64,000 bases of DNA, taken from positions 14,807,756-14,871,755 of the forward strand of contig NC_019880.2 in NCBI RefSeq assembly GCF_002234675.1, given 5' to 3'. Numbering within the stretch: the stretch's first letter is position 1; each line of letters opens with the position of its first letter. The DNA comes from Oryzias latipes. Its lineage: Eukaryota > Chordata > Actinopteri > Beloniformes > Adrianichthyidae. This document shows positions 18,667 through 44,290 of the stretch, piece by piece. A model generated the notes under the pieces. The model was not told where the DNA came from. It searched no databases and saw only the letters and a list, made by a program, of their open reading frames with translations. The position numbers were made by a program, and so were the translations under genes.

Positions 18667-21128
18667 TCACGTCTTCTTTTTTGTCTTTGGCGCTGTGTAT
18701 TTGGTAGTTTGATGCTCCATTCTGTCATATTTATCGTGGCCTTCCCTGGGGACATAATGGAAAAGGGGAGAATTGATAATTCATCACACTAAATACTTTA
18801 TATTCACGCTGCTTAACAGTACAGCAGCGTGCCAACATTTTATCTGGGTCATAACATGCATTTCAAATCAACACTCTTGATATCAGAGTAAGGATTTCCC
18901 ATAGAGGGCATCGTTTTAAGTCCTGGTCAGGAATATTAGCTCTAAAAATCTGAAATAGTTACCGGAAGCAGCGGTTGCAGTACAGGCTTCCGTCACACGT
19001 GTGACAACGAAGGCTGGCGTCTTGATTACAGATGCAGCACCATGGAAGCTCTTCTTCTTCACTGTCTGATGACTGATGCATGACAGCAGCAGGTGAGATT
19101 CTGCTCTTAGGAGCAGGAGCCGAACTCTACACGCCACAGCAAAAGAAAGCAGTGTTTTAAATAAAATGCAGCCAAACAGCTTAAAAGAAAACACAGAATT
19201 TTGATCAATGAACATACTGATTTTTTAGACTTTTTTTTGTTTTCTGTGTTCCTGGGGCCACTCTGCTCCATGGGTATATTGTAGCCACTAGCTTCATCAA
19301 GAGCTGCCTCTTCTGAAAGCTGGAAAGTCAGAAAAACTAAAAAACATCTTAGCCAAACAGCAGCCTCTTGTGGTCAGAATGAAATGCTGTCCTCAAAAAG
19401 GTGCAACAAAGTAAGTGTTTAGTTTTAACTGCATTGTGAAATGCCCTCTGCTTTTCTGTGAATGCCTTACCTGCTTCAAGATTCTCCTCACAGCCTCTTC
19501 TTCAGTCTCTTCATCACTGTCAGGACTCTGGAAGTCCTCCATTGTGACTAAAAGTGTATTATAGAAATGTCAGTTACAAAGTTTTAAATTCAAAGTCTAG
19601 TCATTTTTCTCCGTCATAAAACTATAAATGTTGGTAAACTGCTCCCTGCACCTTTTTCTGGGTCCTGCCCCTTGAGCTGCGCCAGCCTCTTTGCCATATG
19701 GAGGACCTGCTCTTGGGAATGTTGCTCCTGCCTCAGCTCCTGCATTGCCTCCTCGAGAAGACGGTCTTTGTCCGCCTCCAAATGTTTCACCGTCTGCCGA
19801 TTTTCCTCTAAGTTCTCATCCCATGTGGCACCTTCCCCTTTGTTCAGATCATTCATATGGCTATTTATGTCTTTGAACAAAAAATAAAATATTTAGAATG
19901 AAACCAGTTTTCCATGATTAGATTGTAGGGGCAGTAAATTTTATTGCTTTTTAATTAAAACTATTTTTTTAAACAAGCAAAACATTACTTTGTTCATGGT
20001 TTAACTGCTGGTTGTCAATGCAAACTTCCTCTGTCATCTGAGTAATCAAATCATTAGCTTGTTCAGTCTGAGTCCGTTTATCAGGAAGCTGGTGAACCTG
20101 TCCAGACGAGAGCATAAGGATGTGTTAGCAGGTAGACCATACTATTACCGGACTATTTATGAGATACTTGAGACTCTACCTGGGTTGCATATTTTATAAA
20201 CCATCACCCATAAAAGAGGTGGGGATTTAACTCACAGGAGGAGGAGCTTGAGATGGTGGTGGTTGACCCCGTAGAGCAGCCAGACGGTCCTCCATTTCCT
20301 CTATGGAAGGCACTGGCTGGCTGGGTGCTTTGAGAGCAGCGAGACGAGACTCAAGATCACTCTGAGAGGGAGATGGCTCTATAGAAATGGGGAAAAAAGT
20401 ATGACAAATAGGAGGAAAACTCATGTCTATTATAGGTGTTTAATTTATGCTCATTAAAAAAAGATCCTACTTGGTCTAGTCTCCTCTTTTAATCTTTGAA
20501 GACGCTCAGCAATAATCTGATCTTCTTTACTTAGACCTTTACATGGTAGATGACCCGCTTTGTTGCTCCCTCCATGTGCAGCAGATTTCACAGACTGTCC
20601 CTGCTGTTTGGCCTCAAGGGCGGCGACACGCCTGTAAAAGACAGTAACTTTAGATAGTGTTCTTAATAAACCCACATGTATGTATTTTCCCCCTTTTAAT
20701 CTGATCACATACTAACTTCTTGTAATTTTCTGGTGGGGACCATCTTCCGGCACTGCTCGGAGGTTCTCCACTGATGAAGAGAATAAAAACAAAAGATTAT
20801 TCGACTTTGGAGAGTTCATCAACATAATTCAGCAGCACTTTTTATTTATATATTTATACCTTGTCAGATTACCGTGACATTGCTTGCAGACCTTCTGTTG
20901 AGTGTTTCCGCAGCGAGGCACCACAGCACTAAAAGCCAAACAGCTGGGGCAAAAAGATCGCCCGCAGTTTTTACAGCCCAGCTATAAACACAATATTATA
21001 TAGAATAAGCCTTCAGTACACATTTATCAAAACACAATCGTGTCATGTTCATATTAGCCATGATACTACTATACCTCTTTTTTGAAAAGACTAAACTTGG
21101 ATGCGCAGCAATAACAGCGACCGTCCAT
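18667..21128 (-). CDS. zfyve19: zfyve19 (ANCHR), abscission checkpoint regulator
   Basis: ANCHR holds VPS4 at the midbody to delay abscission when chromatin is trapped. Eleven exons are 21128-21075, 20981-20860, 20770-20717, 20631-20471, 20378-20236, 20097-19989, 19870-19652, 19547-19471, 19319-19218, 19126-18963 and 18745-18667. They sum to 1284 bases in frame, 427 residues (human about 470). The N-terminus is a FYVE-type zinc finger with Cys pairs at 5/8, 21/24, 29/32 and 50/53. Two MIM1-like VPS4-binding motifs follow: LESRLAALK (about 139-147) and MEDRLAALR (about 159-167). Exon 7 encodes a Glu/Lys-rich coiled coil ([17 protein letters not shown]). The C-terminus has a B-box-like finger ([15 protein letters not shown]...CNRCFREGHD). 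The start is the ATG immediately before the first FYVE cysteines. It is head to head with bub1b. Confidence 0.93.
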
Positions 21129-21458
21129 TCTGCCCCTTCATTAAATATGAGGTTATCACATACGATACACCAGCAATTAAATGTGAAAAGAACTTTGCAA
21201 AATTAAGAAAAAATAAAATTAAAAACACAGAAAATGCTTCCTCCTGTTCTTGTATTATATTACTGAACGTAGCTAGAACCAATACCGGAAGTAAACCGGA
21301 AAACGTCATTTGTCGTCATCTTTGTTTTTCCGGTATTTTCAACCCACCAATCAGCTTTCTCCTTGTGTTCTCGCGGGACTTGTTCAAAAAAAACAGCGAG
21401 CTAACCGTTTCAGCTTTGCACGGTCCAAGATTTACCTGCTTAAAAACTAAAGAAGCTT
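21129..21458. promoter_or_regulatory. bidirectional promoter of zfyve19 and bub1b
   Basis: The two genes diverge, with 845 bases between start codons. The interval holds two CCAAT boxes (21279-21283, 21347-21351), an ETS site ACCGGAAGT (21284-21292), a CRE half-site (ACGTCA at about 21303), and CGCGGG followed five bases later by TTCAAA (about 21372-21388). The last resembles a CDE/CHR cell-cycle element in reverse orientation. A strong donor at 21459 (AAGCTT|GTAAGT) ends a probable non-coding first exon of bub1b. CCAAT plus CHR is typical of G2/M genes. Confidence 0.6.
21400..21458 (+). other. bub1b non-coding first exon (predicted)
   Basis: The donor GTAAGT at 21459 follows GC-richer promoter DNA. 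The matching acceptor is CTTTTCCAG ending at 21963, ten bases before the start codon. The 5' end is a guess. Confidence 0.45.
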
Positions 21459-21657
21459 GTAAGTAGTAATAGTAATATTTCATGTTTTATATTGAAGAAA
21501 ATTTATTTTATTCTAATTGATTTGCCGAGTCTAAAAATACGGCCACGATTAATTTAAAGCATGCGAATAAAGTGATGGAATATCCATGGTTACACACTCC
21601 CACCCTACGCTAAGCTAACTAGCTTTTCGAACAACAACAACCTGTCTTTTTTTCAAT

Positions 21658-21708
21658 TCTCAGAATGAAAACATAATCTGTTTTATCTCAGAATGAAAAC
21701 ATAATCTG
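21658..21708. repeat. short perfect direct repeat in bub1b 5' intron
   Basis: CTCAGAATGAAAACATAATC followed by TG occurs twice, separated by a few bases ('ttttat'). It is a recent local duplication in the leader intron. Confidence 0.7.
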
Positions 21709-21973
21709 GCATAGTTGGTTGCAGCTTGTAGGTTTACACGGTAATACCCCGTCTTAACTGTTTTGTCTACTGTTGATATTTGTGGATTATGGAAATCCTG
21801 TAGCAGCACAAACTGATTAAAATAAAATGTATGTATGTAGCAAAGGGCAAAATGACCATTGTTGTGATTAAATTCACATAATCTTTGGTTTGCTTACCTT
21901 TAATATCCTGTGATTATTTCAAAGTTTCTGATTGGAGTTTTTTGCCCTCTCCACCTTTTCCAGCATTTCCACT

Positions 21974-24889
21974 ATGGCGGAAGGTGGTGATGTGGAATGG
22001 GAGCTAAGCAAAGAAAACATTCAACCACTAAGGCGGGGAAGAGACATATCTGCCTTACATCAAGCCTTAAGTCAGCAACAAGATGGACCCACATCAGCCA
22101 TAAACCAGCAGAGACAGTATGGATGCTTTTGCAAACACAGCTATTGATCTGAAAGATTTTCAGCTGAAAATGTTTTGGAGTTTGAACATAGTTTTGTTTC
22201 CATTATTTAAAAATGTAAACTATCCTGTGTTCACAGAACATTTGAGTCTGAGCTACGCATGTATGATGGAGACGATCCTCTTGGTGTTTGGGATAGGTAA
22301 GCGACTTCTAACTAGGAATGCAACAATTCACCTTCCCTACAATTCGGTTCAGACCTCGATTTTTGGATCAGATATGTCCCGATCTGTTCACGCGATTGGA
22401 AATGGGGCCCAAGCTTGTAGTTTAATCATTATTGAATGTTTTATTTCCATCAGGAATCAAATATTTATTTAATTCTTATTATGATCAGTGTTACATACAT
22501 CAAACTTATTATTACAGATAAATGCTCTGCTGGAAGTCTGCATATCATGAACAGATACCAACATTTTATTGCCTTAAAGCTCAGCAGAGTATGGCACTAG
22601 TTTGAGTAGGAGGTGGTTGAAAACAATTGGATAAAGTTAGCAAGAAATTCATTGATACAGACTTTTCAGGATCAATAACTCCTTTTAATAAACATTTAAA
22701 ACTGACAGGAAGTGTCTGTATTGGTTTGTCCTAACACAAACAACATTCAAATTTCATATTAAAAGAAAAATATTAGTTTTTGATTTCTTTTTATGAGAAT
22801 TGCTCAGTCTGTTTTGAGAAATTTGTACCTGAGCTGCCAACTGAGAGGCGGCAGTGAATCTTACACCGTAAATATACTGGAATGCAGTAGTGATGCAATG
22901 ATTAACTTTCACCACGATTCGGTTCATTGGTGTAACAAACTATTCTAACTTTCCCCAGCAGGAAATCAAGCGACTTCTGGTTATGTCCTCTGATTCTTCA
23001 GTCACTGGGGTTTTTTCAGGGTCATGATCTGAAATTGTGCAGCTGCTCTATGCCTCCCGGAAGTCAAATGGTTCGATTTTAAACCGAGATTTGTGGGATC
23101 CCTAGTTCTTACAATAAATTTAACTTGCAATTGAATGTGCCAAATTTTTTCTTTTATTTCTTTTTTTTCTTTTTGAATGTTTGCCAGACTAATTCAGTTG
23201 GTAGAGTTTAAAGATCTTTAGAAAACCACCGATTTTCAAATGTTTGAATCTCTAGATCTAAAATGTCTTTGTACCTGGTTGACTCCTTACAGATATATAA
23301 AGTGGACAGAACAGACTTTCCCACAGGGGGGGAAAGAAAGTAACCTCACAACACTGTTGGAGCGAGCTGTGACCAGATTCACTGAAGACAAAAGATATCA
23401 CAATGATCCTCGCTATGTAGACCTCTGGGTCAAATTTGTACGTACTCCTAGCTTTAGATTCATCTTTCCCTCTGTTAAATCATGTTTTATAATGTTTACA
23501 ACATGTTTGTCCGTTATCAGGCAGAAAACTGCCCCGAGCCCCTGGACATCTACAGGTACATGCAAGCTCAGGGAATAGGGGTGATGCAGGCTTCCCTTTA
23601 TATTGCTTGGTCTGAAGAATATGAAAAGCAGGGCAACTTTCGCAAAGCAGACCTCGTATATAAAGAAGGCTTCACCAAGAGTGCAGAGCCACATGACAAG
23701 CTTCTCCAGTTTCACAGGTATGCAATGAAATTAACATAAAAAAGATCTTTTTTTCCATCTTGTCTTCCTAAAACAATTGTGCGATTGTTTATTATTGTCG
23801 ACAGGGCTCTGCAGGCACGTGTGTCCCGGCAGGTATTGATGACTGTGCATGATGACAGCAGTGACGACGAGCCCCAACAACCTGAGAGAGTTTCTTTAGC
23901 TGATCTCAAACACAGAGGAAAGAAAAAGGCAGTTGCTCCTGTCAACAGAACTGGGCCAGCAATCAAAAGTAAAAAAAAAAAAAAAGGGGCTCCAACAGCA
24001 TTAATATTAAAATGATTTTTGGAAAATATTTTAATTATTGATGACTCTGTGGGCAGGCATTTCTGGAGGCCTGCAGTCCCGTGGTGCCCCGGTTCTCGGC
24101 AATGTTTCGAACAGTCGAGTGGTGATCTTTGACGAGAACAAAAACCAGAGCGCCGACTCGTCAGAATTCACCGGCTCATCAGAACTTGAGCGGGATCCTT
24201 GGTCGGCTCTTCCTACATCAAGAGCAAAAGAGAATGAGCAGAAGCCTGAAAGATGGTGTGATGTTAAGGTAGGAGAGAATGACGGGCCGGTTAAGGTGTA
24301 AGTATTTCAGTTCAGTGCAGACAGCTTGTTTGTATGTTTATATTAATCACAGGTACGGCAGAAAACAAAATTTGGACATGCAGTTATGGCTCCTCCGCCT
24401 CCCAAACCAAACTTTCAACCATTTGTTGAGGAGTCAACCCAGCCTCCAGTAATGTGAGTAGCAAAACACAACATTTTTTATTCAATCACATAGCTTGTTG
24501 AGTCATTTCAAATCTCCCTGAACAGTAAATGTGAATCATATCAGTTTGGTGTTAACTGGCGCTTTAATAGAGGTCAATGAATAAAACATGAGCATTTCTT
24601 TCCTCCATAAAGGACCCCGTGTAAGATCAACCCAGCAGTGAACACAGTTCTGTCGGCGCGTAAGCCAAGCAAAGAAGAAACTCCTTTGAAAAGACTGCAG
24701 GACCATCAGCAGCTCCAAAAAGAAGCAGAAGTGGGGAAAGTGCAGGAGCAGAGCATGTACTGTAAAGAGCTGCTGCTCAGGGGCGCCACAGAGTTCTGCT
24801 TCGAGGAGCTGCGCGCTGAACGATACTTCATGAAGATATTTCAACACTCGCAAAGTGCCAAACAGGAAACAGACCAAGCTTCAGCTTGA
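21974..24889 (+). CDS. bub1b: bub1b (BubR1), Mad3-like form lacking the kinase domain
   Basis: BubR1/Mad3 is the APC/C-Cdc20 inhibitor of the mitotic checkpoint complex. Coding exons are 21974-22116, 22237-22296, 23293-23437, 23521-23717, 23805-23968, 24057-24268, 24353-24453 and 24613-24889. Phases are consistent, 432 residues. KEN box 1 is at 13-15 ([12 protein letters not shown]), the TPR/Mad3 homology domain at about 50-200 ([24 protein letters not shown]), an ABBA-like motif at 258-263 (VVIFDE), KEN box 2 at 294-296 (RAKENEQ), the conserved VMTPCKI at 340-346, and a GLEBS Bub3-binding motif at about 390-415 ([18 protein letters not shown]). The frame stops 17 residues after GLEBS. The B56-binding KARD and the C-terminal kinase of human BUBR1 (about 1050 residues) are absent, and no kinase exon was found downstream. 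It may be the teleost 'bub1ba' duplicate. Confidence 0.9.
22312..23105. mobile_element. candidate hAT-like element in bub1b intron
   Basis: The left end CTAGGAATGCAACAATTC and the reverse-complemented right end CTAGGGATCCCACAAATC form imperfect terminal inverted repeats. Similar 'aattcggttc'/'gattcggttc' motifs occur inside. It fills most of the intron between the second and third coding exons. The target duplication is unclear, so the class is tentative. Confidence 0.5.
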
Positions 24890-25358
24890 TTCACACTTTT
24901 ACAAAGACTTTATATCATGTGACCACTTCATGTTTTTGTGTTTAATTTTTCTGAGTTTTTTTTTTTTGTCTTTTAAGAATGTTAATTTCTTTACACGGTT
25001 TAAAGATCTTTAAACTGCTCTTTATAGTTGTGCTTGTTTTAAAAACGCAGTGAGAAGAAACTCCTGCTTTATTTTTTTTGGCATAAAATCCCAGAATGGT
25101 CAACTGAATATATTGTCAAATACACAAACAGTTTTAAATATGTAAATAGTGTTTTATATAAGCTTTTTTTTGTTTTTATAGGTGTTTGGCTATGTTTTTT
25201 TTTTGTTTTTGTTTAACAGAGTTTTCTGTTGCAACTTCTTGTCTTCACAAAAAAATTCCAGTTTTCATCTTTATGTGTTTCCCTTTATTGCTTTGTTCTC
25301 TAAAACTGCTTATCAGATATGCTGTTTACTTTTACAGCTTTTATCATTCAGTTTTGCT

Positions 25359-25389
<31 letters not shown>

Positions 25390-25459
25390 CCGCTTATGGT
25401 AGTAAGAATGTATTCAGTTTTTTGGTCGTAGATTCTGAATTAATGTTCCTTTCATGCCT

Positions 25460-25465
25460 AATAAA
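25460..25465 (+). other. polyadenylation signal of bub1b
   Basis: AATAAA about 570 bases past the stop, after an AT-rich 3'UTR that includes a (TA)n run at 25363-25388. A transcript ending here would confirm the truncated form. Confidence 0.5.
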
Positions 25466-25499
25466 CCTTCTAAGCACCTCACAGATGATGTATGTTATT

Positions 25500-28400
25500 G
25501 ATGCGTGGTGAGAATGAGGGTATTGCTCTGTCAGTAGGGGGCATAAGAGGGACAACTCACAAGTAATGGGTGTAGAATATCACTGGGCTCTTCTGTTGCT
25601 GTGATTATTACAGAGGATTTTCTTACAAAATGCCTTAACATTTGCCCTTACATTACCAAGCTGAAACAGCCTCAAATAGGAATGACTGAATTCCTCCAAG
25701 ATGGTGGCTGGTTGATAAGCAGGTAAATTCACCCCATGATAGCAGGTCAGTTTTTCCCTATTAAGACTACCGCTGATGGTTCATGCAATGCTTCTTGAGC
25801 TTCTTCATCAATGTTCTCCAGTGAAAGATAATGTACACAATCCATTGTGTACACCTTCCACTCACACACAGAACTTTTAAAGTGCTTTACAGAGAGACAA
25901 CATTAATGCAATTAAAACAATATAAAATAAAGGATTAAGAAAAGATTTGCTGCAAAAACACAACATATTTGTGTTAGATCTATGCTTAGATGTTTTAATG
26001 GTGCAAACATGTAACTTGCAGCTTCTGTCTTCAACACTTTGGAAAAAGGACACAAATAAGAGAAGACTTGTTAAGGTTTAATTATTTTTATGTGAACTGA
26101 CACTACTGCAGATAAAGAATGTCATTGAATCAGTAATTAACGGTTTCATTGTTGCAGTGTTTGACGTTTAACTTCTGACATAATGATTCAGGGTCTTCAG
26201 ATCGATCCTCTTAAACTAAAAAGGTTATTAATTTCACGTTTATTCATGTTTGTTACCTCTATTTTGGCCCTGGTCTATCTCTGACAGACTTTCTATTTCA
26301 TCTTTGATGCTTTAAAAAAATAACAGGCATCTACGGCATTTTCCATCAAAACAATCAAAGCATTTTTGTAATTTTTTCAAGGCTTACTCAAAAACGCATG
26401 TGTTAAATGGTCATAAGTGCTGGAGATTCATATTAACTTTGGAAAATGGTTGTGTGGCAATGTATCTGATGTGTGAAGTTACACGAACTATTGAGAAAAT
26501 GTGCATTTTGTCACAATCTACTTTTACAATACACTTTACAGACCTGTTGAGGTGTTGTTGGTTGTGACATAAAAACAGAAGTCTTTATTTTGCAGAGACA
26601 GCTGATTTTATTTTTTTGGACAGTTCTTAATATTATTTTATACAGTTATCTTTCTATTTTCTACACCAGCATCTGTTCTTCTCTTGATTCAAGTAATTGC
26701 AATAAATAATTGCATTTATTTCATCACACTTTTTTTTTTTTATAAATAAAAGTGATTTGAGTTTTTTTTTTTTAAGTGGTGCACACGTTTATATTTGTGA
26801 AATGCAATAAAAATCCATACATTAATAATCTATCAATACAAAGTTTATCAGTACGTTTTTGAGCAAACCTTTTTTTTTTATTAAAAATATTGAAGAAACA
26901 TGCAGAATCACACTGTTGTAAGTTTTTTTTTTACACCTCTTTATTCAAATATTTGACAAATCACAATTTTAGTTTGTTCTGAGATAAAACAAAGAAATGT
27001 TAAAGAAAGAAATCTGTTTTTGTTATATTTTTAAATGATGATGGGTACAGAAAATGAAAGGGCATCCGTGTTGCATGCTGGGACAGAAGCACAACTTTGT
27101 TTGGAAGGTTTTCTCCCTTTCTGCTGTTACTTTACCTCTTTTTTGTTAAAATTGTTTAATGTAGAAAATAGGAAAATGGAGGAAAGGAAAAGAGGAGAAA
27201 AGATGCACAGATGTGGATTTCAGAAACCTTAATATTTCCGATTCATATTTAATAAGTTGTTTTTATGTTTTCCTCAAGTGCATCACAGATCTAACAAACA
27301 TAATTATTTAATTTTTCCTGCAGTTGTTTTGTATTTGTGGTAACACAAAACATTAAATTCCTGTCATCTTCACTTGTGATTATTTTAGAACGCCTACATT
27401 AATATTTAACAACAAGAACAAAGCCAACTTATTGTCAGAATAATGGAACATAAACATTTTAGATTTAATTAAAATAATCAGTTAATAATGATATAATAAA
27501 CCTATATAATTCTGCTTTATTTACTGATATGGATTGCCTTGTCAGAAATTGTACCACTAAGCATTTTGTTTACATTATAAAAACAAGTTAAAGAAACTGT
27601 ATGATGTGGGAAAGGGGGAAGAATTACAGGAGTTATTTTATAGTCAAATAAATAAAGTATTTAAAAGTCTAAAAGAAATGCTAATCATATCACAATAAAT
27701 CCCATGTTTTTTGCTTTATTAATACAGACACATTGAATAAAGGATAATGGAACAACAAGAAACTATTTTTGTTGCCTCATAAGATGATCCCTTGTGACAA
27801 ATATTACAATTCTCATGCTTTCATCCCAACCTATAGGATAAGAAGAAATAGTATTCCGAAAGGCTTGATTAATGTCAAGACATCTTGACTTTTGCTCTAT
27901 CTACCATCATAACCATATTTTTTATTTTGAAATATTTTTAACTATACCCAATTACCAATTGCAGTAGCACAATCATAAACATAAATTACATGGTGTGGTG
28001 CTGCTCAGGAAAAATGGATGCTCTAACATTTGCAGAAATCCATCTTAAAATCCTTTCAGAGTTTTATTAGTTAGGATTTTGACTTGTCAGTTATGTTGAA
28101 GGACTCAGCTCAGCTGGTTTGGGGAAATTAAATCCTTTTTGTGACAAGCATCAAGAATGGGGACATGTTACGAAACAGTTTTAGTAGTCTTCACAGCTCT
28201 GATCCCAAAATAACCACATCAAATATGCAAAGCAAGACAGTAAAATATAGCTGCACCAGCAAACATGAGCATCAGGATGATGACAACAAAGATTTTTGCT
28301 TCTTGGTGATTTACTGGAGCGCTTCCATTCCACCCTACCAACAGGAAATCGCCCCATTGCTTGCAGATTGGGGTATTTTCACATGACTTTGTTTTATTGG

Positions 28401-29000
28401 TTAGAAGGAACATCACGGTTCTAGTCTGTTCTTGCATCTTGGTAAATACTTTCATGTTGCATGCATGCCCTAAATCTGACTCACTCTTTGATGCAATTTC
28501 TGCACGACTTGACCCTAATACATCTTCCTGCTTTGAGTCTTGTCCTAGCAGCTCTATGAATTATTCAGGAAATGATTGTAGTGAAACGAAAGGGGAATGT
28601 TTTACTCGACTAATGATGCCAGATCTGGATGGAGGACAGAAGCAGCCAGTTGAAACTCATCTACAATGATTTTTGGGTCAAAAAAATAAAAAAATAAAAC
28701 AAAAGAAAAGGTTGTGAGGCTGGGATGAGAATTGCTTTTTGAATAAAAGTGGTCCCACACCCCCTTTATGATCATCCGGATACAGCAACCCCCCCCTTTG
28801 CCATCTGCCATCCCTGACTGCCCCTCCATAGATATTGCATTTGACTGAACAGCAGCAAAGTGGGTGAAACAGCCCATGTGTTCTCATGTCACCCACATTG
28901 AGGGACGGTGGTGGTGGTGGGGTGGTGGGGGTGGGGGGCATCTCAGGTGATGAGATGTGGAGGAGCTGCCCTTGCCTAATAGTCACCGGAAACCAGCTTA
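25500..29000. other. AT-rich intergenic stretch, no gene seen
   Basis: About 3.5 kb between bub1b and the pak6 promoter. Many T and A runs and several AATAAA-like words. I looked for BubR1 kinase exons (HGDL, DFS and other kinase landmarks) and saw none in the translated frames supplied. Confidence 0.6.
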
Positions 29001-29580
29001 ACACGCACACACACGCAAAATGACATAAACACACACAGCTATCAGTTCTCCTGCAACCCAATGAGGGAATGGGAGGAGGCGGTGAAGGAGGGAAGTGATA
29101 AAGAGAGAGGGAGGTGGGAGGGGGTGTTTGTAAGAGACGGGCAAGCTTAAGAAGGAGAGAAAGAGGGAAGGGGGTGGATGGATGGAGCTATATGTGCTGG
29201 TGATATTCCCTTCTCCTGGATGCTGCCTTTCCTTTTCATGACTTTGTCCCTGCTTTCCACCGTGTCTGTAGGAGCAGACACCGGTACTCAGCGCAGCACT
29301 CAGCCACAGAGCCGGGGATGAATCAGCTCCAACAAAGAGCCTTTGAGATGGCAGCGTGTGCCTGGAGGGAGGAACGCATCAGGCTTTCCCAGGCAAGCGG
29401 CAGCCTGCAGTGTGCTCCTGCTTGAAAGCCAGCCCTCCTCGTCGTGGTGTGTGTGAGAGCGGTTTATGGCCGTGAGTGTGTGTCTGAATGTGAGTATATG
29501 AGTGTACAATAGTGTGTATGTGCACACTCCTGCTTCCAACCCCTCTTGGAGGAGAGCTCTCCTCTTCACTAGACAGAAAG
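29000..29580 (+). promoter_or_regulatory. probable pak6 promoter and non-coding first exon
   Basis: A GC- and purine-rich block (29060-29180, GGGAGGAGGCGGTGAAGGAG and similar) is followed by CAGCGCAGCACTCAGCCACAG and ends at a strong donor AGAAAG|GTAAGA (29581). The next good plus-strand acceptor in front of a recognised exon is the pak6 coding exon at 38268. Transcript support is needed. A flanking ATG (29319) opens no recognised frame. Confidence 0.4.
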
Positions 29581-32500
29581 GTAAGAAGGAATAACTGCTT
29601 TTTTTGTTTCTCCTCTAACAATGACTTGTACCTCCAGAGCCCTGCGTCCTCTCTTTCCACGATGAGTGGGGGTAAAGGTGGGAAGGGTAGGAATGAGATG
29701 TCATTGATAATAAGCGAGCTAGTGTACGCCTGACGTGAACCCATGGTGGAGGAAGAAAGAGATGCAAAGGCTGTGAGCAGAATGCAGCTCAGCCAGATGC
29801 AGATGAAAGGAGAAATGGAGAAAAAGGCACAGGCGAGTCGGATGCTGGAGGCTTCCAGTTATGGACCAGATCTCAGAAGAGATGATGCTCACCCTCCTCC
29901 TCACAATCTTCTTGCCTTTAAAAATGATCAAATACTATTAACATTTTCCTCTATCAATCACTTTTTGAAGATGATCGGTACTGCTTTATGCATTCTTGAG
30001 GGATGCTTCTTGTTTTTACGACCGTGTCCTCTAGTGAGTGCTTGTTTGAGAGTCTTTTGAAGAAGCTAAAAATAGTAACCTAAGAAAAAACAGTAGGAAA
30101 CAGATATATGAGGTTTTTCTATGCAGTGGAACCTGTAGATTAAAAGTTTGCATTGATTTAAAAATTTCAAAACAGTGATCTGGACTCTTTGATGCTAATT
30201 AAGCCAAAGTAGGAAGATCTCTTCTCAGCGTAGGGTAAAGTTGGTTTGTAAAGTCTCTCTGTAAGTCTCTTTATTAAATGCAAAGTGTCAAGTGAAAATC
30301 AATCTAAGGGTAAGGTGTTTAAAGGAAGAGTATGGATTGCAGCTGCCGTCCAGAGCTTTGGCATCAACAATGGACTTCACTCTCACTGACAGCGTCACAA
30401 CCAAAAACAGTTATTGATCCTGACTTTATAACGTCACCTGTTATCTGTGCACAGTCCCACCAACAGCAGGCAGGAGCTCTCTGCGGACGAGCCGAAATGT
30501 TTTATAGATTCTGTGGGATCAAAAATAGGCTGTAGGTTCTGTAAACCGCTAAGGATGATGTAACTTGAAGTAAAATCTGTGTTCATGACTGAGGAGGAAG
30601 AGGAGGCAACAAAGAAAAGCTGTCACATGAAGCTGAAAATCTGCTTTAATGAAGTTGGTGTGTCCAACATCTTCAAGATTTAGCTTTTTTTGTTTTTGTT
30701 TTTAAATATATTTTTTAAGAGGTTGCTTGGCGCTTCAGCTTATTGTTTTGCAGGCTCCCAATGACACATGAACTGTCAGGCAGCACAGACTGCAGAAGAA
30801 ACAGACCCAATACTAACAGGACAAGAAGTGATAGCACCCTCTCAAATCCTGGTGAACACACCTGCAGAATTCACCGTCGTGTTCGGCAATGTTTGCATCA
30901 TGCAGTGTTCGCACAGCGCATTCCTAATGTACCATCTTCCCAGGCTGTGCCTTATCAAGCTCCAAGTAAAAAAACAAAAAAGAGGACTTGCATGATAAAG
31001 TCCTTTTATCTGTGCTGTAAATATATAGCTCAGATCCACACTTAAAGAAAAACTATTTAAAAAGCAAATACCTCAGTGCTTTTTTCTTGATTTTGAATTA
31101 CAAGTTCACTATTCAAATTGATTAACAATTCAACACTATTTAATTAAACATATTGTTGTTGCTTTTCATTTCCATCCAGTTTGGTTGTTAAAGTAAAGGA
31201 GTTAAAGATAACCAGTGATTGAAAGTGATTAAAAGACAGACCTTTCATGGAAAAATAAAGAATTTCCACATTAAAAAATCAATGAAGAATTGCATTTTCT
31301 GCTTGGACAGAAATTACAAAAAGAAAAATCAATACATGGATGTGATGAATCAATATTGCATTTTCTAATATCGATAAACCAAACCAACCATAAGCACTGT
31401 TGAAGCTAGATGCATTAATAAAAGTTGAAAATGCTGTATTTATTGTCAACCACTCAAAGTATGTGGGAGAGCCAAGAGGATCTTTAATTAAGTGGAGTGA
31501 TGGTCAGTGCTGCGTGTCTGTTCAGACACTGTTCAGATTATAAAATGCAAACAGTTACATTGCATGAAGATACAAGCTGACCTGACGGCTTGTTTTTGTG
31601 TGAACATCCAGATCAGATAAAGATCCTGAGATGCTGCAGGAGTTGTTTTTACAGCATCACCATCAATATTTGTTTGTGGTCTGCAGCGCAGCGGCGGCTT
31701 TTAAGGTGCCGTTATGTCCTCAGAGCAGGAACAACAAACTAGTTTTCAATTTTCTCATCGAGTGGAATCAGTGTCATCATGTCAGGTGACAAGATGATGC
31801 ATGCAGTGTATTGATGCAAGTGTGCACTGCTGAAGTCCCTTTTTCTGTCACCAGTTTACTATAGAAGACATGATGGATGAAGGATGCCAACAGCATCCAT
31901 GTGCCTCCAGATGAGACCAAAACCGTAATGTTCACTGACAAATATGATCAGCATCCATTTTCTAAGTACTCTCTTCTGTTTCCCTGTGACAACAGCTGAG
32001 TGTTCATCCTCTCTTTGCCTCCACTCATCTGTCAATAAGAACACAGGAGAGGGGAGCAGCCTTTCACAAGATATCTGTCCTTGAAAAACTGCATATCGTT
32101 TGGCTCAGACATTGTACAAAGTGTGTATTTTCGAGTGCAGACACGCTTCACAACCACAGGATTTCTCCTACCTAGAAATAAAGTTAGCAAATACCAGACA
32201 AGCCTTCTGATCACGGCTTCTAACATTTCCTGCTTGCATGACTTCCTGCAAAGGTTTGAGGTAAAGCATGATGTTATTTCCAAGTACAGTGAGCTCTCCT
32301 TACGAGGGCCAGCTAAATCCCTTCACAGACAGAAGAGAACAGATACAATATGGATATTCTGCCATTTCTATCAGTGTTGTTTCATGCTATTTTCCTGAAA
32401 CTTGCTCTCAGCTACATCCAGATTATTGCTACCAACAGATTATATTCTGTTACCAGTCTATAGCATCCATTTCATTTGCCCTTGGGTGTGCTCGACCTAA

Positions 32501-32789
32501 GGACCTTACCGCTTATAACAGATAGAGATACTTCAAAGACAACTGCTGTCATTTGAAAAAATTCAAACACAGCTATTCATTTTCTTTTGCTTCCTTCACT
32601 GGCTTTACCCCTGTGCTCTTTCCTTTATTTTCACTGAATGAAGTACAGATGTTTGGATGTTTTAGAATTTGTGGAAAACTGCTGACTGCTCAAAGGAAAC
32701 AACAAAACATCAGCACCGTCAACTAACTGCCAAAACTTTTAAATTAACTGACCATGATTTGATTAATGGTGAAGATTTGATTCTTTGTT

Positions 32790-33412
32790 TATGTTTTTTA
32801 AAAACCCACTGATAACAATTTTTGTGTTTTTGGTGTTTTAAGCGCGTTTTTGTGGCATTTTGTCATAGTGGAGGACATGCAGTAGTTAAAGAAAATTAAG
32901 CTTAAAATTGCATTTCTCTTTTTTTCTTCAAATTGTTGTGAAACAGGAGCAGACGCCAAAAAAAAAAGCAGTTGGAAAAAGCTTGTAAATGTGATGAACA
33001 CGTTATTACGCCAAACCACAAGCTCTCTGCTCCTCTCTATTTGGATGCGTCCACTTGCAGACAAACAGATCCATGTACGTCTTTGTTTTCCTTGTCTGAG
33101 CTGGAATCTGACTCACTGTACGGCTGGATAGCTCCAATATTGCTCGCCATTTTTGTTGCACCAGTAATGTTAGGTTGGGGTTGTGAGGGGTTGTAAGCTA
33201 GCAGGAGAGAGTCTAAACAAAGGGATGATGGGAAGGGAGCAGGCTTACTCCACGCCAACAGTCCCACCCACAACTCAGAGGTGACTACTACTGCTGCTCT
33301 GCAGAAACTATGTCCTAGAAAAACGACACAGGTCTTTTTTATTTAGTCGGAAAACAGCATAATCATAGTTAAAAGACCACTTTACGATAGAGGGGGTAGT
33401 GGGACTTTAAGT
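32790..33412 (+). repeat. dispersed repeat family B, copy 1
   Basis: It shares long segments with 40730-41112 and 54375-55550, such as 'tacgtctttgttttcctcgtctgagctgg', 'tgtacggctggata', 'tccaatattgctcgccatttttgttgca' and 'ccacaactcagagg'. It ends in 'agtgggactttaa', the reverse complement of the 5' end type 'ttaaag-ccaact' seen at 60847. These ends suggest a non-autonomous DNA element with TTAAAG termini. No transposase is present. Confidence 0.8.
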
Positions 33413-35758
33413 CTACTGTGGAACATCAGATCACCAAAGCAAAATATGCATTGCAGCACCTTGTTTTCCCTGTCTATGGATGCGGCCTGTTATTTCCTTT
33501 TTGGAATCCATGCCCGTCAAGGCCATTCCGAAGAGAAATTAGACATGAGCTAAATCCCAAACCATGCTCAGATCAGTTATCTCCTGTGCCTTGCACTTTT
33601 TATGCTTTTTAATAAAACCTGTATGCTCAAATCTGGAAGTCTTTGCTACCCCTCTAAAATGAAGCATCATTTCAAAAAAGGACAAAATAATGATGGAAGA
33701 ACAATCTCTAAGCCCTTCATGCTTAATCTTAAAGCACCACAGAACAACATTTATGTTTTTTATCCTGTTATATGAAACAGTGTCTATGCAGCTCCTGTGA
33801 TTCTGTAGAGCAGGATTATTGTTAGACGTGCATTTATGAACAACAAAAAAAGAGGATATCTACCATTTCTCGTCCTCACCTCACTGTTTGACATGAATCT
33901 AGCACAAAATAAACAGGCGTGTGGTACTAGAGAGGAGAGGGGGATGATGTGTACTAAAATTAGATCACTGAAGGGCTGAATAAAATACTAATCCTGCAAG
34001 CACAGTCACCTGCACATTTGCTACATTTCTGCACGCACGCCAACAAAAAAAAAAAAAAAAAGGGAAAGGAGCAGAAATCAGGGCAGATAAAAAAATCATC
34101 ATGGCCCGCAGCTCTAACATTGAGCAAATCCAGTATCTTTTATCTCTCAATCTCCTCCCACTCAACCACAACTCCTGCTCAGGGTGATTTAAACATGAGA
34201 GGAAGGCATGGCGTGTTGTCCGCGGGAAGCATATGGATTGCCCGGGTAAATGACTGCATCATATGAGTGGCCAAGGTGAAGAAGCTCCATCTAGTCTGGG
34301 GTAAGGCTTGGACATTTAAACTTGGATTGAGTTGGGAGAATATTGGGGAAAGTTGGGTTTATTTACAGTTTTTTTATCAATCCTTTCGCGCTTTTTGTGA
34401 ACGAATTGCTTTTTAGCTTTCAGTCATTTGGATCTCACTTTTTTGGTTGCTGCAGCGCAAAATTGGGCAAATGAAATAGTGCTGCCCTTAGCAGATTTTT
34501 TCAGATGATCTCATCTTCTCTGGCTCTTTGTATTCCTGACGGCAACTAAGCAGTTGAGTTTTGCCTCAGCACTTTGATGGATTCAACATAAACCAGTGAG
34601 GCACAGGGTCAGGTCCCAGCTGTTTTGAGGGATGTGACCTGAAAGCTGGATTATACGCCGCACAAATTCAGTGGGCAATCCAACCAGGGAAGAAATCAAT
34701 GAAGTGCCGTGATCAAAACTGTCAGAGGCATGACTGAGTCTAAGAGGTCATGATGGGGTCAGATGCATGTGATTAAACCTTGTAAATCAATAAACTCATC
34801 AACTTCTGAATTTGTTCTGTTGTCTGTGTGTACACAGACTTGAGTCGTTGAATCATCTTCACATTTTAGAGACATAAACCATCTTGCCCATTAATATTGG
34901 TAGCATCTTATTGGTGACAGTACAGGACTGTAGCTTGCATTTTCTCTCCAGCAAATATCGATTCAACTGTTTGTAAAGGATTACTTGAGTGTTAATGTGT
35001 AAATATTTGTTCATGCAATGCCAGGATCTCCTCCCTGAACAGCAAGCTAAGCAGATACCTGCATGTGAAACAGAGAGGGGGGAAAAAGATAGCAATCTTT
35101 GCTTTGCAGTCTGTTTTCTCTGGTTTTCCTCTTTTTTTGTAACAGGGAATTGGTGGTTAAAAGCTTTCCCGTGTTTGTGGAAATGAAAATGCTCCCACAT
35201 ACTCCCAGGTCTGAGCTGCGGCTCCTCTTCTCCCACCATAATGTCCCTGTCGGATAGAATTAACATCTTACCCGGCATCAAAATTTGTACATGGGGAGAG
35301 CACAGAGTGATACATTTATGCAACACTTAACATATTAGCCTTGTGGTTGAATTATCCTTGGAGGGTGACACATCTCTCTGAGCAGGACCCCCACCCCTCT
35401 TTCTCTACACTGAAACGGCGCTTGGCTCATGTGATTGGTGGTCCTGACCTTGCTCTACCCTCTAGTGATGCAGCAGGGTGAATGGCATGTGTTAGTCACC
35501 GGCATATCTCACAACAGGCTCCACTGACACAGATTAGCGACATGTTGGTCTTAGGGTTCAAAGTGCTAAGAGGAAAGGTTGCGACTTGATCACATACTGG
35601 GTCGAGGAGGGATGCAAAACTCATTAAGGAGTGCATTGGGAGGGTGTCACTGAGCCTAAATCTCTTCTGGGACACAGGTCCCCTGTGGCTCTTCAGCTTG
35701 TAAAGGCCTGCATTAAAAAAGGAAAACCAGCATTTTACACATTACATAAATTATCTTA

Positions 35759-35868
<110 letters not shown>

Positions 35869-37563
35869 AGACACTTTAACAATTTAGTGACTTCAAACTA
35901 AACATCTAATGTTTTAAAGGGCTTCTACTTTATTTCCCACATGAATGGAGGGCAAAAAGTGGCAAAACCCAATGAAAATCAATTACATTTTTTTTACTTC
36001 ATCTGCTTCCCACTATCAGCAGTTGCCTCAGAGACGTAATTTACGCATTCATTAAAAATATTGTTTTACACCAGATGCCTTTTCTTGCAAAATGTGACAA
36101 AGTGAACCTAGAATTGAACCTGCTGAATTTAAATTCCTTCACAGTAGCGTTTAAAAATAAAATGTAATAATGATAAAACAACAGGAGTTGTAAACAAAGC
36201 TCATAAACGTCTTATTTTGTAGCTAACCAAGCTGTGTAAGTAAAGGGTTAGGTGTAAAGTTAAAATTCAACTATTTCCGTTATTTATTAATTAATAATAC
36301 AGATTTTAGACACATATGTAGCCGTTTTAAACATGTGCAGAATATTTTCTAAAATGGAAATGTTAATGCTATATCATTGTGCTGTGCTATTATTATTTGC
36401 TTTGTCAAAGGATTGTGATGAAGCAGATAATAAAATACTTTATATATTTATTTTAAAACAATTAATTAACTTTATTTAATCATTTGGGATGTTGTTAGTG
36501 TTTTCTAGACATTTTAAATGCCTATAAGTGAATAATTAATCTGCAATGACCCATACAGTTATTATACTCAATGATTAATTTAACTATTTTTGTCACTTTT
36601 GATCTTCTATACAAAAAACGTGTTGCAGCAAAAAGATTTACGTCAGTTTATGAGAAAGTCTCTTTTGGCAGCATAAGACCCTCACTTTTCAGACTTCAGT
36701 CAATTTTTTTTTTACTGTTTGACTGTGACATACTCAACCACAACTATTTTTTTTTTGTTTTAAATGAACAGCATCAGGCAAAGCTTGTCTTCATCTTAAA
36801 TATGGGTCTTGTTGTTTTATCACCTAGACAACAGTGAATCCTGTTACTATTTGGTGAGAGTGAATATTGTGACAATAAGAGAGAATTTATGAACCAAGAC
36901 CCTGGACAAAGTTCCAATCCAGAATGAACAATTAGAGGTGTGTGTGCATTAATGCAAGCTACTTAAAGCTGTATCCATAATCATCTTAAGATTTATATGC
37001 GGGTGGTTATCTCATCGTACAGCTTTCTTGCTAAGCAAATTAAATGAGCTGTATTTAATTATTTCCCTCCAGTAGAATGGAAAGTGAAGCTGCACTCACA
37101 GTAAACCTGGATTGGTGGCTTGGTGAAGATTAAGTGGTTGCCCTCCCTGAAATCAAGGGCATACAAGCTACTAATTAGGATATGAAAAGCTTGTGGAGGA
37201 AGCTATAAAGGATAGCTTCCCACAACATTTTTTGTTTGTATATACACATATGTGTGAGTGCTTTTTTTTTCATTTTGTAAATGCACAGAAAGCCTTTGGG
37301 TGCTGGTCAGCCCAACCGTGTGCTCATCCGTAAAAGGACACAAAACGAATAAGCTCTAATTGACCCGATATCCTTCATTACACATGTGCTTACAAATCCA
37401 TCCAATATCCTTGAAGCTGTTTTCAACTAATCAAGCATGGGACAGCCAGCAGGACACAGAAACAGCCAAATTCTGTTTGCATTGTCTGCAATGCACAAGA
37501 AACTTGCTGGTTTTAAAGGAGAAAGATTGTATTCGTAATCTGCATGTAATAACAGTACAATCT

Positions 37564-38224
37564 GGGGTGTTACAATCGATTTTAACAATGATTCGATTCG
37601 TATCATAATTTATTGTTGACAATCTATGTAATTCATAGTTGATATTGGTTCATTTTGAACGATCAGATCCACAGACCTAAAATCGACCAAGGATATCTTT
37701 AGCCAGAAATCCAACCTTTGTGACTCAGAGATAAATACCTGGGTTCTGAACAGTGCAGGTGGAGTTTTCCAGATTCCTTGTATTTCTTGCAAAATATTCG
37801 AGTGTAAATTTAATGTGTGTACAAACAAACAAGTGAACAAGAATTAATGTCAAATCCATTCACATTTTTGCTTCATAAAGTTCAGCCCACTGCTGGTTTT
37901 CCACATCACAATAATCCAAAGGGGAATATTATTAGAACATTCTACCAAACTTTATGGTCACATTTCTTTGCATACTTTATTCAAAGTGTTTCCACACATT
38001 GGACTGTAATGATGGCTTGATCATTTTTTACTGCCATCACGTGTGTGTTATCTGCTGTGATGCACTTGGTCGTTTTTACGTCACAGTAAAACAAACCTTC
38101 CGTCCCTGAATCCAAAGGGTTTTTTCTAATATCGACATAATCAATTTGTTTGTATTTCAGAATAGTATAGGTTGATTCATTTTGATTATCAACTTGCGTC
38201 AGACGGATCGATCTGATTGGATCT
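37564..38224 (+). mobile_element. repeat family A, uninterrupted copy (hAT-like MITE)
   Basis: The 5' end is GGGTGTTACAATCGATTTTAAC and the 3' part runs 'ggttgattca...gatcgatctgattgga'. The element matches 49527-51155 in reverse. Shared landmarks are 'gaatctggaaaact(t/c)cacctgcactgttcag', 'ccattcacatt' and 'cacattggactg'. It lacks the 958-bp insertion of the other copy and so gives the empty site. It ends about 45 bases before the pak6 splice acceptor. Confidence 0.75.
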
Positions 38225-38311
38225 CTTTTGCATTTCTTTTAATCAGAATGTTTTTTTTTCTCAACAGGGAGATTTTGAGGCTGGCGAGCAGCTGTCCTTG
38301 TAGACCTAAAA

Positions 38312-44290
<5,979 letters not shown>

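Follow-up and report, generated by a model that had tools for sequence, protein, structure and literature searches.

A medaka BubR1 gene with an apparent Mad3 architecture

In a 64-kb window of the medaka genome (the whole stretch of DNA that was analysed), the sequence supports the presence of a BubR1 gene that has the architecture of Mad3 and lacks the 3' half. It is the combination of intact N-terminal motifs, the lack of an LxxIxE motif and the lack of any downstream exon match, in a search whose control was positive, that points to this architecture. The gene is very probably the teleost N-terminal ('MAD') product of a published BUBR1 duplication and fission, and is presumed orthologous to the published fish genes. 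We favour this assignment because its eight-exon frame is intact, its product aligns with BUBR1 up to residue 427, the ABBA1-KEN2-ABBA2 cassette is present with its tryptophans, and no C-terminal exon is detected on the plus strand of the next 13.4 kb. The first-pass annotation of this DNA had already inferred that the locus reached the Mad3 architecture through loss of its 3' half; the gene model, the BUBR1 alignment, the lack of matches in the downstream plus frames and the control all support that view.

Gene structure and relationship to BUBR1

The bub1b-like gene occupies positions 21974-24889 of the plus strand, and its eight exons join in frame to encode 432 amino acids followed by a TGA codon. 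Every intron has GT-AG borders, and the 1296 coding bases contain neither a frameshift nor a stop. Coding exon 1 (21974-22116), defined by its GT donor and in-frame join, encodes KEN1 at residues 13-15 and the start of the alignment to BUBR1, from residue 19 of the latter. The TPR domain is encoded by exons 2 (22237-22296), 3 (23293-23437) and 4 (23521-23717), which are placed by their splice borders and by the Pfam family Mad3_BUB1_I, exon 3 being recovered in the PDB search of the control frame as well. Splice borders and a motif scan define the next three exons: exon 5 (23805-23968) carries a D-box-like RxxL at residue 210, exon 6 (24057-24268) carries ABBA1 (residue 258) and, between W285 and W303, KEN2 (residue 294), and exon 7 (24353-24453) carries ABBA2 (residue 328). 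Exon 8 (24613-24889) is the last coding exon; it is supported by its splice borders and by the BUBR1 alignment, and holds the GLEBS-like segment and the TGA at 24887-24889. The first AATAAA or ATTAAA 3' of the stop is an AATAAA at 25460-25465 on the plus strand, ~570 bases away, a candidate polyadenylation signal.

Within intron 2, at 22310-23107, there is a pair of 20-nt inverted repeats (22310-22329 and 23088-23107) that are 80% complementary and 758 nt apart, with CTAGG/CCTAG near their outer ends. On these features we take the element to resemble a non-autonomous element of the hAT type.

The protein was compared with the PDB using phmmer. The best match was chain 6tlj_S, BUB1 beta, of 1050 residues, where residues 5-419 of the query aligned with residues 19-427 at an E value of 1.1e-116. 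At E<=0.001 there were 10 distinct sequences, all of them BUB1 beta, BUB1 or MAD3; the BUB1 TPR chain 4a1g_A (E 6.7e-32) and the MAD3 chain 4aez_C (E 2.2e-28), which we take to be yeast Mad3, were both far behind 6tlj_S. Pfam placed Mad3_BUB1_I (PF08311) at residues 45-166 (E 1.6e-46), so the TPR region (Mad3/BUB1 region 1) expected of a MAD paralogue is present. Mad3_BUB1_I_2 gave an E value of 8.6e-05, too weak for the cut-off of the family, and no further Pfam family, including region 2/GLEBS, matched the 432-residue protein at E<=0.1.

Motifs in the predicted protein

KEN tripeptides are found at residues 13 and 294, the first of them (KEN1) near the N terminus and inside the segment aligned with BUBR1; two or more KEN tripeptides arose in 0.4% of 20000 shuffled versions of the protein. 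Strict matches to the ABBA motif begin at residues 258 (VVIFDE) and 328 (FQPFVE), and the three positions 258, 294 and 328 form an ABBA1-KEN2-ABBA2 cassette in which W285 and W303 stand on either side of KEN2. A cassette of this kind, with two flanking tryptophans, is described for MAD paralogues in the motif account of Tromer et al. 2016 (PMC5204127), which also describes the D-box as occasionally lost. The medaka protein has RxxL at residues 190 and 210, a pattern so short that it is weak evidence for a D-box.

A GLEBS-like segment lies at about residues 388-411, its limits drawn by eye and its identification based on the pairwise alignment with BUBR1 up to residue 427 and not on Pfam. The stop comes 13 residues after the last residue aligned to 6tlj_S. 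The motif scan found no LxxIxE (KARD) anywhere in the 432 residues.

Much of what the first-pass annotation had described thus holds: the eight in-phase exons giving 432 residues were recovered when the exons were rebuilt on GT-AG borders up to the TGA, and both KEN boxes and the TPR domain are present. Its single ABBA-like motif is real but undercounted, since two strict matches flank KEN2. Likewise, it had placed a stop in the same exon 17 residues after GLEBS; the stop does fall in exon 8 and a GLEBS-like segment is seen by alignment, but the count shifts with the end point chosen for GLEBS.

The medaka protein resembles human BUBR1 (BUB1B) in aligning with it over BUBR1 residues 19-427 and in having a PAK-type gene downstream, and differs in that it stops at 432 residues, whereas PDB chains of the human protein run to 1050 residues with KARD and pseudokinase. 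Yeast Mad3 has KEN boxes and a TPR domain without a kinase; the medaka protein shares this architecture as well as the match to 4aez_C, but its form would have arisen from a vertebrate BUBR1 that lost its C-terminal half.

The downstream region and the fission of BUBR1 in fishes

The C-terminal half of BUBR1 was sought between the stop codon and the next gene. None of the three plus frames of 24890-38300 gave a PDB match at E<=1, though the PDB includes BUBR1 chains of 1050 residues, and in the three plus frames of 24860-39700 the sole Pfam match at E<=1 was a PBD at ~38342, which belongs to the next gene. On the minus strand, Pfam matched nothing in 24860-34700 at E<=0.1. As a positive control, one of the three frames of 21974-24889 was handled identically, and it recovered BUBR1 (E 6.1e-43) in four stretches. 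In about 13.45 kb of the plus strand (24890-38341), neither the PDB search (plus frames to 38300) nor Pfam therefore detected an exon for the C-terminal part of BUBR1, be it from the KARD region, the pseudokinase or elsewhere, a negative that rests on the sequences in these two collections, which short and strongly diverged exons could escape. Neither in the protein nor in the downstream plus frames was there thus any sign of the KARD (LxxIxE) and the C-terminal pseudokinase that mark a full-length vertebrate BUBR1, and the earlier statement that no KARD or kinase exon is visible in the 13 kb before pak6 is upheld by both searches with their one-frame control.

Plus-strand open stretches of at least 60 amino acids number 32 in 24890-38300, an excess over the 13.9 that 30 mononucleotide shuffles gave on average. 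The longest open frame has 119 amino acids; in the shuffles the longest averaged 109. No PDB or Pfam match lies inside these plus-strand stretches.

A BubR1 split of this kind in bony fishes has been in print since 2016, and the medaka gene would be one further example. The caution in the first-pass annotation that teleost duplicates might already be catalogued was therefore justified: Tromer et al. 2016 (PMC5204127), as duplication #7 of their figure 1, give BUBR1 as duplicated and split by fission in teleosts, and their section 2.1 states that the C-terminal fission product was kept only in the zebrafish lineage. Cordeiro et al. 2020 (PMC7608062) list gar with a KARD-bearing MAD. These two statements are a further reason for regarding the medaka gene as the MAD product of the fission and, because gar is so listed, the loss of the C-terminal half would date to after the gar-teleost split. 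By its published description, the teleost fission product, whose C-terminal counterpart is missing outside the zebrafish lineage, is the closest known system to the medaka gene, orthology again being presumed. In zebrafish, bub1bb appears as a genome-editing target in PMC4263700.

Compatible with the gene being the MAD product is a reciprocal fission, in which a second bub1b elsewhere in the genome would keep the KARD/kinase half and the ancestral roles would be divided between the two. Such an arrangement is published for the zebrafish lineage, but the same passage of PMC5204127 confines the C-terminal product to that lineage, which makes a medaka counterpart unlikely. It speaks equally against the second, full-length bub1b that the first-pass annotation had entertained as a possible partner. 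We consider it distinctly improbable that the gene is in fact full length, the stop belonging to a short isoform or the 3' exons having been removed by an assembly deletion. BUBR1 does have 1050 residues in the two longest PDB chains, and a misassembly is possible in what is a single assembly; however, no C-terminal exon was detected before the next gene on the plus strand, the entire window of this one assembly contains no N, a candidate polyadenylation signal follows the stop, and the fission of BUBR1 in teleosts is reported in the sections of PMC5204127 cited above. That the gene is a decaying pseudogene remnant is least probable of all, for although the greater part of the ancestral protein is absent, the coding frame and the GT-AG borders are uninterrupted, the KEN and ABBA motifs are retained, and the GC content of the exons is 43-52% compared with 38% downstream.

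Proposed function and neighbouring genes

If the gene is the MAD product of the fission, bub1b would now terminate in the exon that holds GLEBS, and its protein would be expected to act like Mad3, as a checkpoint effector. GLEBS is the Bub3-binding segment, and the GLEBS-like segment of the medaka protein is predicted to bind Bub3. KEN1, the putative D-box and the ABBA1-KEN2-ABBA2 cassette would contact Cdc20 and block the APC/C within the mitotic checkpoint complex; contacts of BubR1/Mad3 with Cdc20 through KEN, ABBA and D-box are described in the corresponding part of PMC5204127. The same source assigns to human BUBR1 a KARD for PP2A-B56 recruitment and a pseudokinase for stability, and PMC7608062 places the docking of PLK1 just N-terminal of KARD. 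The KARD-based recruitment of PP2A-B56 and the stabilising pseudokinase appear to be gone from the medaka gene, and the C-terminal functions (PP2A-B56 recruitment, stability and PLK1 docking) would either have been lost or be carried elsewhere. We tentatively raise the possibility, to which we give somewhat less than even credence, that no BUBR1-type KARD or pseudokinase is left in the entire genome and that kinetochore PP2A-B56 recruitment and BubR1 stability are supplied otherwise, for example by a KARD kept in Bub1. If so, most teleosts would represent a natural knock-out, among vertebrates, of the BubR1 C-terminal half. A vertebrate BubR1 without KARD and pseudokinase would offer a natural test, revealing the BubR1 functions that are not needed or that another protein can take over.

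Downstream on the plus strand lies the PAK-type gene, called pak6 in the first-pass annotation, with a PBD-coding stretch at 38342-38497 (Pfam PBD, E 4.6e-14) and, after it, kinase stretches at ~41644 and ~42825; in human, PAK6 presumably likewise follows BUB1B. Upstream is a divergent gene on the minus strand that is zfyve19/ANCHR-like, with a B-box stretch at 18962-19042 (Pfam PF22586, E 4.6e-08), so that bub1b stands head to head with it (18962-21974). ANCHR is an abscission-checkpoint protein and, given the head-to-head order, two cell-division checkpoint genes may here share a promoter region.
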